Source: Sphingomonas canadensis (GTDB taxonomy: Bacteria > Pseudomonadota > Alphaproteobacteria > Sphingomonadales > Sphingomonadaceae). From it: DNA of 64,000 bases. The notes under the pieces are model-generated. The model saw only the letters and a list, made by a program, of their open reading frames with translations. It made no database searches and had not been told where the DNA came from. The position numbers were made by a program, and so were the translations under genes. The stretch covers positions 310,001 through 374,000 of the forward strand of contig NZ_JAPDRA010000002.1 in assembly GCF_026013525.1 (NCBI RefSeq). Direction: 5' to 3'. Positions 2,870-49,863 of this stretch are shown one piece after another (position 1 is the stretch's first letter; every line of letters begins with the position of its first letter).

Positions 2870-4381
2870 ATGCGGTGGATGCTGGCTTCGGCCCTGGCGA
2901 TGGCGTTCGCGCCGCTCCCCGCCGCCGCCCAGACGGTGGCGGAGCACAACGAACTTCCCGCGCCCGCGCGCGCCGCCATCGACAAGGCCTTCGCCGACTT
3001 CCGCGATCGCACGCCCGTTCCCGGCATGGTCTATGCCGTGGTGCGCGACGGGCGGATCGTCCACCTCGGCGCCTGGGGCGTACAGGAGATCGGCGGATCG
3101 GCCGTCACCGCACAGACCCATTTCCGCATCGCATCGATGAGCAAGGCGTTCACCGCGCTGGCGATCCTCTCGCTGCGCGACAAGGGCAAGCTCTCGCTGG
3201 ACGATCTGGCGGAGAAGCACATCCCCCAGATGCGCCGCTGGACCTATCCCACCGCCGATGCGCCGCGCATCCGCATCCGCGACCTGCTCCAGCATGTCGC
3301 CGGCTTCGTCACCGACGATCCCTGGGGCGATCGCCAGCAGGTTATGAGCGAGGCCGATTTCACCCGCACCATCGCCGCGGGCGTGCCGTGGAGCCGGGTG
3401 GGGCAGAGCCAGCATGAATATTCCAACTTCGGCTATGCGCTGCTCGGCCGCATCGTCACCAATGTTTCGGGCATGCCGTACCAGCAGTATATCCGGCGCA
3501 CGATCCTGGAGCCGCTGGGGATGCGCGAGACCGGCTATGAGGTCGGCAATGTCGGCAAGGACCGGCTGGCCGCCGGCTATCGCTGGGAGAATGACCAGTG
3601 GGTGCTGGAGCCGTTCATGAAGGACGGCGCGTTCGGCGCGATGGGCGGGATCAACACCACCGCCGAAGACTATGCGAAGTGGGTCGCGTTCCTGCTTTCC
3701 GCCTGGCCGGCGCGCGACGATCCCGATGCCGGGCCGGTGAAGCGCGCGACCGTGCGCGAGATGGCGCAGGGCCTCAACTTCGTCCGTATCGCCCCGCGCC
3801 CCGGCGCGGCGGCGGACGACAAATGCGTCCATGCCATCGCCTATGGCATGGGCATGCGCGTGTCGCCCGATTGCGACCTTGGGCTCACGCTGTTCCATGG
3901 CGGCGGCTATCCCGGCTACGGCAGCTTCGTGGTGCTGGCGCCGGAGACGGGCACGGCGGTGTTCGGCTTCGCCAACCGCACCTATCAGGCGCCGTCGCTG
4001 CCGGTATGGCAGTCGCTGTGGGCGCTGGCCCGCGCGGGGGTGATCGCGCCGCGCCCGGTGCCGCTGAACCCGCTGCTGGGCGAGATGCAGGATATCGCGC
4101 GTGCCGCCTATCGCGCGGGCGGGCTGGGGCCGCTGGAGGGGCGGCTGGCGATGAACTTCCTGCTCGATCGTTCGGCGGAAAACTGGGCCGCGGAATTCGC
4201 CCGGATCAAGGGCCTGGTGGGCGAATGCTCCACCGCCGAGCCGCTTGCGCCGACCGGCAGTCTTTCGACCGCGTTCCGATGGAATTGCGAGAAGGGGCAG
4301 CTCGACGGCCAGATCCTGCTTTCGCCCACCAATCCGCCCGCGATTCAGGCGCTGCGCTTCAATCCGCGTCCGGCGCCCTAG
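2870..4381 (+). CDS. Exported serine hydrolase (class C beta-lactamase/esterase family)
   Basis: Penicillin-binding-protein-like serine hydrolase, 503 residues. An N-terminal signal peptide probably ends at AAAQ near residue 20. The catalytic SxxK is SMSK (Ser89, Lys92), the Tyr motif is HEYSNFGYALLG, and the late motif is HGGGYPGYG in place of KTG. Family members hydrolyse beta-lactams, D-aminoacyl peptides or esters, and the substrate cannot be read from sequence. A GTG at 2867 precedes the ATG at 2870; the ATG is better spaced from GGGAG (2857-2862). A C-terminal extension of about 120 residues follows the hydrolase domain. It has no obvious link to the neighbouring ribosome genes. Confidence 0.85.
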   Translation: MRWMLASALAMAFAPLPAAAQTVAEHNELPAPARAAIDKAFADFRDRTPVPGMVYAVVRDGRIVHLGAWGVQEIGGSAVTAQTHFRIASMSKAFTALAILSLRDKGKLSLDDLAEKHIPQMRRWTYPTADAPRIRIRDLLQHVAGFVTDDPWGDRQQVMSEADFTRTIAAGVPWSRVGQSQHEYSNFGYALLGRIVTNVSGMPYQQYIRRTILEPLGMRETGYEVGNVGKDRLAAGYRWENDQWVLEPFMKDGAFGAMGGINTTAEDYAKWVAFLLSAWPARDDPDAGPVKRATVREMAQGLNFVRIAPRPGAAADDKCVHAIAYGMGMRVSPDCDLGLTLFHGGGYPGYGSFVVLAPETGTAVFGFANRTYQAPSLPVWQSLWALARAGVIAPRPVPLNPLLGEMQDIARAAYRAGGLGPLEGRLAMNFLLDRSAENWAAEFARIKGLVGECSTAEPLAPTGSLSTAFRWNCEKGQLDGQILLSPTNPPAIQALRFNPRPAP

Positions 4382-48290: not shown

Positions 48291-49031
48291 TCACCCCAGC
48301 AGCATCCACAGCGCCATTCCCACCATCATCAGATTCTCGGTGAGCGAGAGGAAGCCCAGCGGCACGTTGCTGTCGCCGCCCACGCAGGCGCATTTCAGCG
48401 TGCGCCGGTCGATATACACCGCCTTGAAAACCGAAACCGCGCCGATGCCGCCGATGAACAGCGATATCGGGATCGCGATCCGGTGCATCAGCGGCTCGCC
48501 CAGCATCAGCACGCCCGCCAGCGCCTCCGCATAAGGATAGACGCGGCCATAGGGCACCCAGCGGCGCGCGAGCAGGTCATAGTTGAGGAACATCGTCGCG
48601 AAGCTCTCCACATCGCGGAGCTTCAGGATCGCCAGCACGCACATGCTGAGCGCGACGAACCACTGCAGCGCCTGTGGCGTGAGGGCTGCTCCGGTGACGG
48701 CATGGCTGAGCGCCAGCGCCGCCGCGGCCGTCACCGCGAACAGCGCGATCACCGGAGCATAGCTGGTGGCCTTGGGATCGCGCACGCGCAGGCCGAAATG
48801 CCGTCGCAGATCGTCGTGCCCGCCGATGCGGACGCCGTCGATGAAGGTCTGCGGTGTGGTGGCGACGCCATGCTGGGCCTTGAACGCATCGGTTTCCGCG
48901 CGGGTCGTGAGCCAGCGGTCGTCCACCGCATAGCCGCGGCTGCGCAGCAGGTGCAGCGCCTTCAGTCCATAGGGGCAGACGTGATCGGGCATCACCATCC
49001 GGTAGAGGGTGGCCTGGGGCTTGCCGGTCAT
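48291..49031 (-). CDS. Glutaredoxin-MauE/DoxX-like membrane fusion
   Basis: 246 residues. The N-terminal glutaredoxin domain (about 5-85) has the redox site VCPYGLKALHLL, with CPYG instead of the usual CPYC, and TTPQTFIDGVRIGGHDDL. The C-terminal part has four transmembrane helices of the MauE/DoxX type and a conserved-looking KCACVGGDSNVPLGFLSLTEN loop. It suggests a membrane thiol-disulfide or metal-handling role (inference). It lies downstream of the cysteine-rich peptide gene on the same strand, apparently under the mer-type promoter. Confidence 0.85.
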   Translation of the reverse strand: MTGKPQATLYRMVMPDHVCPYGLKALHLLRSRGYAVDDRWLTTRAETDAFKAQHGVATTPQTFIDGVRIGGHDDLRRHFGLRVRDPKATSYAPVIALFAVTAAAALALSHAVTGAALTPQALQWFVALSMCVLAILKLRDVESFATMFLNYDLLARRWVPYGRVYPYAEALAGVLMLGEPLMHRIAIPISLFIGGIGAVSVFKAVYIDRRTLKCACVGGDSNVPLGFLSLTENLMMVGMALWMLLG

Positions 49032-49113
49032 CGCGGGTCTCGCTCGTTCGTTCGCCGGGAATGGGGGCGGGCCGCGCCGGGAAGAGGGGGGATGGCGCGG
49101 CCCGGCGCGGGCA

Positions 49114-49233
49114 TCAGCAGCCGCAGTTCTTGCAGCCGCAGCGCTTGCAGCCGCAGCGCTTGCTGTTCCGCGCGCAGTTGCACGGATTGCAGCGGCACGG
49201 GTTGCAGGTGCACCCCTGGGTCGGTTCGGTCAT
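49114..49233 (-). CDS. 39-residue Cys-rich metallothionein-like peptide
   Basis: Translated by hand: 39 residues, 12 cysteines (positions 8, 10, 13, 15, 18, 20, 27, 29, 32, 34, 37, 39), arranged as six CxC pairs (CTC, CRC, CNC and three CGC) with Lys/Arg/Asn between them. The peptide begins MTEPTQG and ends with Cys39. ATG at 49233 with GAGGAGA a few bases upstream; stop TGA at 49114-49116. The composition and spacing are those of a metallothionein, and the gene stands 39 bp after the -10 of a MerR-type promoter. I do not recognise a named family. Confidence 0.82.
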   Translation of the reverse strand: MTEPTQGCTCNPCRCNPCNCARNSKRCGCKRCGCKNCGC

Positions 49234-49271
49234 GGGTCTTCTCCTCATCTTGTCCAAGAGCGGACCCGGCC

Positions 49272-49303
49272 CATATAGGTTCCGTACCATGGTACGGAGT
49301 CAA
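49272..49303 (-). promoter_or_regulatory. MerR-type promoter of the metallothionein-like gene
   Basis: On the minus strand: -35 TTGACT (49298-49303), a 20-base spacer, -10 TATATG (49272-49277). The spacer contains the perfect palindrome CCGTACCATGGTACGG (49282-49297). The overlong spacer with a centred dyad is the hallmark of MerR-activated promoters, and the -35 plus dyad arms match the mercury-resistance operator as I remember it. Confidence 0.88.
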
Positions 49304-49305
49304 GC

Positions 49306-49707
49306 ATGAAAAGCATGACCATCGCGGGGCTGGCCAAGGCGGGCGGCGTGGGGGTGGAGACGGTGCGCTATTACCAGCGCCGCGGCCTGCTCGGTACGCC
49401 CGATCGCGGCGGCGGCGGCATCAACGGCGGTGTGCGGCGCTATACGGATGCGGACGCGCGGCGGCTGCGCTTCATCCGGTCGGCCCAGGCGGCGGGCTTT
49501 ACGCTGGACGAGATCGCCGAGCTGCTCGCGCTCGACGCCACCGGCGATCGCCCCCGTGCCCGCGCGCTGGCCGAGGAGCGCATCGCCGCGCTGGACGCGA
49601 AGATCGCCGAGCTGGAGGCGGCACGGGCGTCGTTGAAGCGTCTGGCGGGCGAATGCGCGGCAGGGACCAGCGGGCCGTGCCCGATCATCGCGGCGTTCGA
49701 GGGTTAG
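49306..49707 (+). CDS. MerR-family metalloregulator
   Basis: 133 residues. DNA-binding helix-turn-helix IAGLAKAGGVGVETVRYYQRRGLL, wing GVRRYTDADARRLRFIRSAQAAGFTLDEIAELL, dimerisation helix, and C-terminal metal loop with Cys117 and Cys125 (GECAAGTSGPCPIIAAF). In mercury MerR the ligands are Cys82, Cys117 and Cys126. The Cys82 equivalent is missing here (TGDRPRAR), so the ligand set is altered. Divergent from the Cys-rich peptide gene across the mer-type promoter, which it presumably controls together with its own transcription. Confidence 0.9.
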   Translation: MKSMTIAGLAKAGGVGVETVRYYQRRGLLGTPDRGGGGINGGVRRYTDADARRLRFIRSAQAAGFTLDEIAELLALDATGDRPRARALAEERIAALDAKIAELEAARASLKRLAGECAAGTSGPCPIIAAFEG

Positions 49708-49715
49708 GGGGCGTC

Positions 49716-49845
49716 CCAATCCTTCCCCGCCAGGGGGAGGTGGCACGCGCAGCGTGACGGAGGGGGAGGAAGCCCCGGCGGATGTTCTGGAAACCTCCCC
49801 CTCCACCGCTTCGCGGTCCCCCTCCCCCTGGCGGGGAAGGATTGG
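49716..49845. repeat. Intergenic long inverted repeat between merR-type gene and xylC
   Basis: A perfect 25-bp inverted repeat (49716-49740 against 49821-49845) is separated by 80 bp that contain a second GGGGGAGG/CCTCCCCC pair and CCGCTTCGCGG. Its position between convergent genes suits bidirectional termination. Confidence 0.88.
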
Positions 49846-49863
49846 AGGGAGACGGGCGGCCCC

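Follow-up and report, generated by a model that had tools for sequence, protein, structure and literature searches.

A two-cysteine MerR promoter in Sphingomonas canadensis precedes a 39-residue peptide, a probable miniature metallothionein-like metal buffer

What could a peptide of 39 residues, 12 of them cysteines, do behind a MerR-type promoter, does it need its neighbours, and which metal would it serve? To our knowledge, few bacterial metallothionein families have been described, and 25–40 residues would be very short for a thiolate protein binding several metal ions. In the stretch of the Sphingomonas canadensis genome analyzed here (64,000 nucleotides, referred to as the window), three genes were confirmed: merR, the peptide gene, and a gene for a membrane glutaredoxin fused to a MauE domain (Grx-MauE) (Table 1). 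The source genome comprises 4.2 Mb and is 99.99% complete. With a probability of about two in three, we consider the peptide to be a miniature cytosolic metallothionein-like buffer that is induced by the two-cysteine MerR, with Cu(I) (or else Ag(I)) as its likeliest metal. A palindromic repeat (ccttccccgccagggggagg ... cctccccctggcggggaagg) was also observed directly 3' of merR at 49714–49850; its type is presumably known from other alphaproteobacterial genomes.

Table 1. Positions of the genes and signals of the locus, in coordinates of the window.
Feature	Position	Strand	Description
Grx-MauE membrane fusion	48291..49031	-	246 aa; CPYG, one active-site Cys; C214xC216
GC-rich hairpin	49068..49104	-	11-bp stem, 15-nt loop, no U run; between peptide stop and grx-mauE
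Peptide gene	49114..49233	-	MTEPTQGCTCNPCRCNPCNCARNSKRCGCKRCGCKNCGC; 39 aa, 12 Cys; CxCxxCxCxxCxC blocks at residues 8-20 and 27-39
Peptide-gene ribosome-binding site AGGAG	49241..49245	-	7 nt ahead of ATG
-10 box CTATAT	49273..49278	-	long 19-bp spacer to the -35 box, as in MerR-type promoters
MerR operator and -35 box TTGACTCCGTACCATGGTACGG	49282..49303	-	dyad CCGTAC-CATG-GTACGG
MerR-family regulator	49306..49707	+	133 aa with just two Cys; metal loop C-x7-C; C82/S77 position occupied by Arg

The predicted peptide of CxC pairs was present as an open reading frame, with its 12 cysteines in two blocks of identical spacing. The pattern CxCxxCxCxxCxC occurred twice in the window, both times inside this frame, and none of 100 dinucleotide shuffles of the window contained such a block. 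The small size and very high cysteine content in CxC and CxxC pairs that are typical of metallothioneins were present in the window peptide, and 6–10 cysteines were counted in the 25–40 residues of the ten other operator-linked peptides. Neither the window peptide at an E-value of 1 nor ten relatives at 0.1 (eight of the ten other operator-linked peptides and those of genomes G279 and G646) matched PF02069, which we take to be the Pfam accession of the SmtA/BmtA family. The eukaryotic metallothionein family PF12749 gave the window peptide 14.1 bits (E 0.046), below the cut-off of 22, and no Pfam cut-off was reached and no NCBIfam model matched by the window peptide or the ten relatives. Searches of the PDB and of plasmids returned no relative, no named, annotated record containing the peptide was found, and the open-licence literature (titles and abstract starts, with subscription journals mostly uncovered) described neither the peptide nor the MerR/Grx-MauE pair. 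With mostly shorter versions behind the same switch in related genomes, the peptide seems to belong to a family of miniature metal binders that has escaped annotation, and thiolate capture of metal, which the original prediction had proposed for a soft metal, would be the best reading of the window peptide.

Eleven operator-linked peptide genes were identified, including that of the window: seven in 295 genomes of the genus and four in other genera of the family. The sparseness within the genus counts against our explanation. Eight relatives (G012, G492, G506, G127, G336, G379, G279, and G646) were found through their cysteine sequence alone, and in six of the eight the operator was observed 40–46 nt ahead of the ATG with 0–3 mismatches. 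The window peptide as query yielded G012 and G279; a profile of three peptides yielded G492, G506, G127, and G646 from 397 genomes of the family; and a profile of nine peptides yielded G336 and G379 from the 295 genus genomes. The initial searches resembled noise, since composition correction apparently hides cysteine-rich relatives; the true relatives were recovered by checking the loci for cysteine spacing, and the blocks of the matches were confirmed by reading the loci. Matches dropped before counting had no cysteine block (L002, L003, L005–L007, L118–L146, most of L156–L182, L245, and L247–L250) or had cysteine runs without acceptable start or context (L162/L217, L165/L218, and L251), and 53 further match places from the peptide and profile searches had neither block nor operator. 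Across 289 genomes spread over the class, no peptide was detected besides that of the window; two weak matches were dropped there, and the profile comprised family members only. A second subgroup of CxC peptides, kept outside the 11, was seen in G279 (L151, 2274–2396; MTEQCPCNPCSCTPTCRC...) and G646 (L158/L212, in L212 at 2237–2362; MTKTCQCNPCTCPPKCSC...). These peptides carry two cysteine blocks of other spacing, and an AraC-type regulator, labeled by eye, adjoins both. The MerR operator is absent at both, which counts against our explanation.

The 11 genes shared one anatomy: an operator, an interval, GGAG, 25–40 codons with CxCxxCxCxxCxC blocks, a stop, and a GC-rich hairpin. In all 11, the operator ended 40–63 nt ahead of the ATG and GGAG lay within the 20 nt preceding it; two close ATGs leave the start ambiguous in G354, G492, G254, and G379, so that the values for these four vary by a few residues. 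The common frame, cysteine blocks, operator, and ribosome-binding site provide the conservation in related genomes on which the original prediction had been made to depend, and the peptide is probably translated. The six block cysteines were present in 11 of 11 genes, an invariance that is partly by construction, since members were recognized by the block; operator, ribosome-binding site, and hairpin were not recognition criteria for six of the members. The typical block reads CxCxPCTCKxCxC, with Thr at position 7 in ten members and Arg in the window, and the N-termini could hardly be aligned at all. Each gene looked like a self-contained unit, closed after the stop by a hairpin whose stem ran without interruption for 10–15 bp; the mean stem was 11.7 bp versus 6.5 bp in shuffles, and no shuffle round exceeded 8.0 bp. 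The folding energy lay beyond all 200 shuffles in only five of the 11 genes, that of the window hairpin was ordinary (z -1.2), and the terminator scan did not score the window hairpin as a terminator. Short T runs (3–5) follow several of the hairpins and none follows that of the window, so read-through into grx-mauE would be expected there. The window hairpin may be a putative leaky terminator or an mRNA-stabilizing stem.

Six-cysteine versions of the peptide occupy the same chromosomal place in G354, which has Grx-MauE, and in G439, which lacks it. A dehydratase-like flanking gene is common to these two and the window (88–91% identity). G354 shares four more flanking genes with the window (SMP30-, SDR-, FAH-, and thymidylate-kinase-like, labeled by eye), and G439 shares the flavoprotein-like one. 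Given these single-block syntenic relatives, the double block of the window would most simply be a duplication, and the unit would be a 13-residue block of six cysteines, doubled in this genome. An extended form with ten cysteines was found in G127. Single and double blocks offer a natural series for setting cluster size against cysteine number. A MerR tree was built from 72 rows, in which the named loci were represented by the even-numbered ones, the MerR of G336 was absent, and that of G254 came from L223, which is not where its peptide lies. In this tree, the peptide-linked regulators needed 7 changes; shuffled labels needed 9.6 on average, and 1 of 500 shuffles was as low. Because the tree was mostly unresolved, it supports neither a single nor a multiple origin of the peptide linkage.

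On the minus strand, the window promoter reads from 49303 down to 49273 as TTGACT, 19 bp containing CCGTACCATGGTACGG, and CTATAT. Operator, long spacer, and -10 box were all read in the window, in agreement with the predicted place of the peptide gene as the first after a MerR-type promoter. A generic sigma-70 scan with spacers of 16–18 bp reported no promoter at the locus, as expected from the 19-bp spacer. Over 131 distinct intergenic regions (consensus TTGACT-CCGTACCATGGTACGG-ACC-CTATAT), the operator was strongly conserved, with at most two mismatches in 112. The source genome contains one exact operator; allowing up to three mismatches added a single match, which is this palindrome again, read from the opposite strand. 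Sites with at most two mismatches were found in 155 of 295 genus genomes (0–4 per genome), and the reversed control pattern gave 0 sites in every genome listed. The 49 operator regions that were read (L183–L211 and L219–L238) included 43 with Grx-MauE, four with a peptide (G354 has both), one with a DHSMHGM-repeat protein, and two with an acyl-CoA dehydrogenase-like gene; the 20 regions L219–L238 were picked as unusual, being mostly without known Grx-MauE or from two-site genomes, so the share without Grx is not a frequency. At the latter two (L220 of G287, at 3027, with Pfam run on this locus; L221 of G237, at 3009), the operator stands directly 5' of the dehydrogenase-like gene, with neither MerR nor Grx-MauE in the surrounding 6-kb stretch; the gene may belong to the regulon for reasons yet unexplained, or the site may be a fossil. 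The operator address, 40–63 nt 5' of the start, could be used to find further hidden peptide genes and to define the regulon of the large two-cysteine MerR group.

Gene positions and Pfam matches agreed with the predicted layout, in which merR diverges from the peptide gene and Grx-MauE follows on the peptide's strand. The MauE domain (5.5e-12, 46.5 bits, cut-off 27) and the glutaredoxin domain (3.7e-5, 24.3 bits, cut-off 22.9) both scored above their Pfam cut-offs in one open reading frame. Near-full-length Grx-MauE was found in 106 of 151 genus genomes, or 118 if 12 that match the glutaredoxin part only are included, and the protein is also widespread among Alphaproteobacteria and Lysobacteraceae, where at least 576 matches were confirmed and 80 named loci retained. 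Besides the window, 107 divergent MerR/Grx pairs were measured; the median gap was 69 bp, and the 274 bp of the window was the largest. The set of 109 rows contained the window twice (L001 and L008), L004, 103 of the 109 loci L009–L117, and three plasmid loci; it was taken without L014 (gap 827), L150 (regulator on the same strand), and L012, L021, L060, L115, and L117 (MerR unmatched in the stretch). Among the 109 loci L009–L117, none had a cysteine-rich frame (at least 20% Cys over 30–40 residues) between MerR and Grx, and none had a CxC-type block anywhere in the stretch. These results did not support the proposal that the three parts form one dedicated module: MerR and Grx-MauE are a widespread pair, and the peptide is an optional extra. 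Glutathione-S-transferase-like genes, labeled by eye, lie between MerR and Grx-MauE, or after MerR, at L014 (G316, 655–1498) and L219 (G230, 3422–4003); L014, where the peptide is absent, adjoins the dehydratase-like gene that also flanks the window locus.

All ten other peptide genomes contained MerR, and in five of the ten, each 99–100% complete, Grx-MauE was unmatched at an E-value of 1e-20. In G012, the peptide gene is located downstream of grx-mauE and has its own operator copy. The peptide is therefore a separable output of the regulator without a general need of the glutaredoxin, and the suggestion that the glutaredoxin keeps the peptide reduced does not stand as a general requirement. 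Co-occurrence showed the two proteins to be outputs of one MerR that may replace or add to each other and are not obligate partners. Cys19, Cys214, and Cys216 of Grx-MauE were invariant in 141 of 141 rows. The predicted structure of Grx-MauE had a mean pLDDT of 78, falling below 50 at residues 211–224, the CxC loop. The 50 Foldseek matches listed were glutaredoxin, GST-fold, and thioredoxin-like chains, and the MauE part was unmatched among them. With one active-site cysteine in the glutaredoxin and the invariant CxC in the MauE part, a hand-over of metal or glutathione-thiolate at the membrane by Grx-MauE is possible.

The regulator matched MerR_1 (3.7e-16) and MerR-DNA-bind (3.9e-18) and could be aligned to mercury MerR, CadR, and CueR, with mercury MerR as its nearest solved or named relative (5crl, 5.2e-27; PRK13752, 3.3e-30). 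It missed both NCBIfam cut-offs, with 101 bits for MerR (cut-off 151) and 80 bits for CueR (cut-off 147). The metal-binding cysteines of mercury MerR are 82, 117, and 126. The two cysteines of the window regulator correspond to Cys117 and Cys126, the loop between them is one residue shorter and has the CueR length, and Arg replaces Cys82. Among 142 distinct MerRs, 131 had C-x7-C, 133 had this Arg (7 His, 1 Ser), and 137 had only two cysteines; all three features were found in ten of ten peptide-genome MerRs read, the window included. The loss of the third mercury cysteine speaks against Hg, and a mercury regulator was rejected on this ground. Within the MerR family, a two-cysteine x7 loop fits a sensor of monovalent Cu(I), Ag(I), or Au(I). 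The C-x7-C loop of CueR was found, whereas its Ser77 was not; the Arg in that place is unusual and counts against copper.

The neighbourhoods of Grx-MauE were searched with CopA–D, copper oxidase, azurin-type, and small copper-binding queries, and control sites with the same set. Copper-resistance homologues lay within 4 kb at 22 of the 80 named loci (17 of 80 once the loci were cut back to 3.08 kb), whereas the 48 control sites (~3 kb) had none, in a comparison favoured towards a positive result by the queries, which came from plasmids beside Grx-MauE. Adding DUF411 and the DHSMHGM protein raised the count to 31 of 80. Of 12 annotated plasmid loci, five had copper genes within 5–6 kb, not counting an H6 plasmid gene labeled cueR, which is the MerR relative itself, and the 12 contexts held no mercury-annotated gene, as read by annotation. 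Copper genes were found near none of ten peptide loci, an argument against copper as the metal of the peptide. The DHSMHGM-repeat protein, which is of secreted type and has no Pfam or NCBIfam match, is encoded in G254 (L223, 3121–4485) opposite the same MerR and operator. On two Sphingobium plasmids, its relatives are encoded ~1 kb away from Grx-MauE, and relatives also occur within 7 of the 80 named loci. Met/His-rich repeats are typical of periplasmic copper proteins, and the DHSMHGM protein is a candidate for an unnamed copper protein family. Other small peptides of secreted type, in which CC pairs are combined with a His/Met tail (e.g., GSCCADMACCKEGADCC...), were seen near Grx-MauE at L022, L023, L026, L028, L067, and L083; they are putatively another kind of Cys-rich metal peptide. 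Among the soft metals originally listed, Cu(I)/Ag(I) is favoured by the C-x7-C loop and the copper genes at Grx-MauE loci, and Hg is disfavoured by the Arg in place of the third cysteine.

The choice of metal is where another reading has most to offer. As a metallothionein-like buffer, the peptide might serve several metals, or a soft metal other than copper (Hg, Cd, Zn, or As), with copper the business of the Grx-MauE neighbours only. Mercury MerR as the nearest named relative and the copper-free peptide loci favour this reading, and CxC-rich peptides bind Cd and Zn too. However, the regulator has Arg for mercury C82, keeps only two cysteines, and has a loop of CueR length, while copper genes occur near Grx-MauE and mercury-annotated genes do not in the plasmid contexts read; we regard this reading as rather unlikely. 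The peptide might instead act as a cysteine-rich chaperone and pass Cu(I) on to Grx-MauE, and Grx-MauE would then move or reduce copper at the membrane through Cys19 and C214xC216. The invariance of these cysteines agrees with such a role, as do the single operator ahead of both genes in the window and G354 and the Grx-MauE of 6 of 11 peptide genomes, the window included. With Grx-MauE absent from half of the other peptide genomes, the peptide missing between MerR and Grx at all 109 loci, and a low-confidence model of the CxC loop, such a chaperone is distinctly unlikely.

The position of the peptide frame 5' of grx-mauE, with a hairpin between them, would also suit a regulatory leader in which metal bound by nascent cysteines alters translation or termination and controls grx-mauE. 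Copper-sensing uORFs, such as CruR, have been described (PMC9426467). This reading is improbable, since the next downstream gene is on the other strand in G506 and G439 (by an ORF heuristic), the G012 peptide sits after grx-mauE with its own operator, five of ten genomes have no grx-mauE, and the cysteine blocks end at or near the C-terminus with no RAPP-like arrest motif seen by eye. Least credible, and very nearly dismissed by us, is an untranslated chance frame over a GC-rich tandem repeat. The second block does have a 15-nt tandem character (TGCGGCTGCAAGxxx), and the plasmid and PDB searches returned no relative; against this stand ten relatives of different sequence with operator, ribosome-binding site, and hairpin in place, and the block-free shuffles.

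The preferred reading, a buffer for Cu(I) or Ag(I), is drawn from the CueR-length C-x7-C loop, the lost third mercury cysteine, and the copper genes near Grx-MauE loci. By analogy with MerR and CueR, the two-cysteine MerR would bind metal in its C-x7-C loop and remodel the promoter with its 19-bp spacer, so that Cu(I) or Ag(I) would induce the operon. The first product would be the peptide, whose 6 to 12 cysteines could wrap the metal in cytosolic thiolate clusters, and the hairpin after the peptide may let a lower level of Grx-MauE follow through reduced read-through. A bolder extension, which we offer as doubtful speculation, holds that the peptides are a new class of modular, ultra-short metallothioneins whose brick of 13 residues and six cysteines multiplies by duplication, that a distinct Arg-type two-cysteine MerR swaps its outputs between genomes (peptide, Grx-MauE, and DHSMHGM-repeat protein), and that the window peptide loads Grx-MauE. 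If such loading occurs in the window, it would be a minimal cytosol-to-membrane copper route without CopZ.

The locus shares features with several known systems. The mercury MerR/mer promoter has the same regulator fold and 19-bp spacer, and the half-sites of the window (CCGTAC-N4-GTACGG) are, as we take it, those of the mer operator. In contrast, the window MerR has Arg for Cys82 and the shorter loop, and the 12 annotated plasmid Grx-MauE loci contain no mercury-annotated gene. SmtA/BmtA resembles the peptide as a metallothionein by cysteine content; it is larger, contains His, and has a zinc-finger-like fold, and the window peptide and ten relatives had no Pfam match to its family. The copper-sensing uORF CruR is likewise a small Cys-bearing frame that heads a metal operon (PMC9426467), whereas the peptide also stands alone in G506 and G439 with its own promoter and hairpin. 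A CruR-type leader heads the operon that it controls and carries CXXC and a C-terminal RAPP; the peptide genes include stand-alone units, and no RAPP was seen by eye in the 11 peptides.

Among described systems, MymT and the copZ-prxgrx-gorB operon come closest. MymT has another sequence, is not known to contain CxCxxCxCxxCxC modules, and its regulator is RicR of the CsoR family, not a MerR; the regulator of copZ-prxgrx-gorB is CueR. MymT is a mycobacterial copper metallothionein on which Cu resistance is stated to depend, with a predicted capacity of up to six Cu(I), and it resembles the peptide as a small Cys-rich protein from a once-unannotated frame (PMC7558416). The copZ-prxgrx-gorB operon of Bordetella pertussis is copper-controlled and has a folded CopZ where the window has a Cys peptide, and a peroxiredoxin-glutaredoxin with a glutathione reductase where the window has the membrane Grx-MauE (PMC7794356). 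Like the window locus with its predicted copper role, it combines a small protein that sequesters copper and an enzyme that contains a glutaredoxin (PMC7794356).
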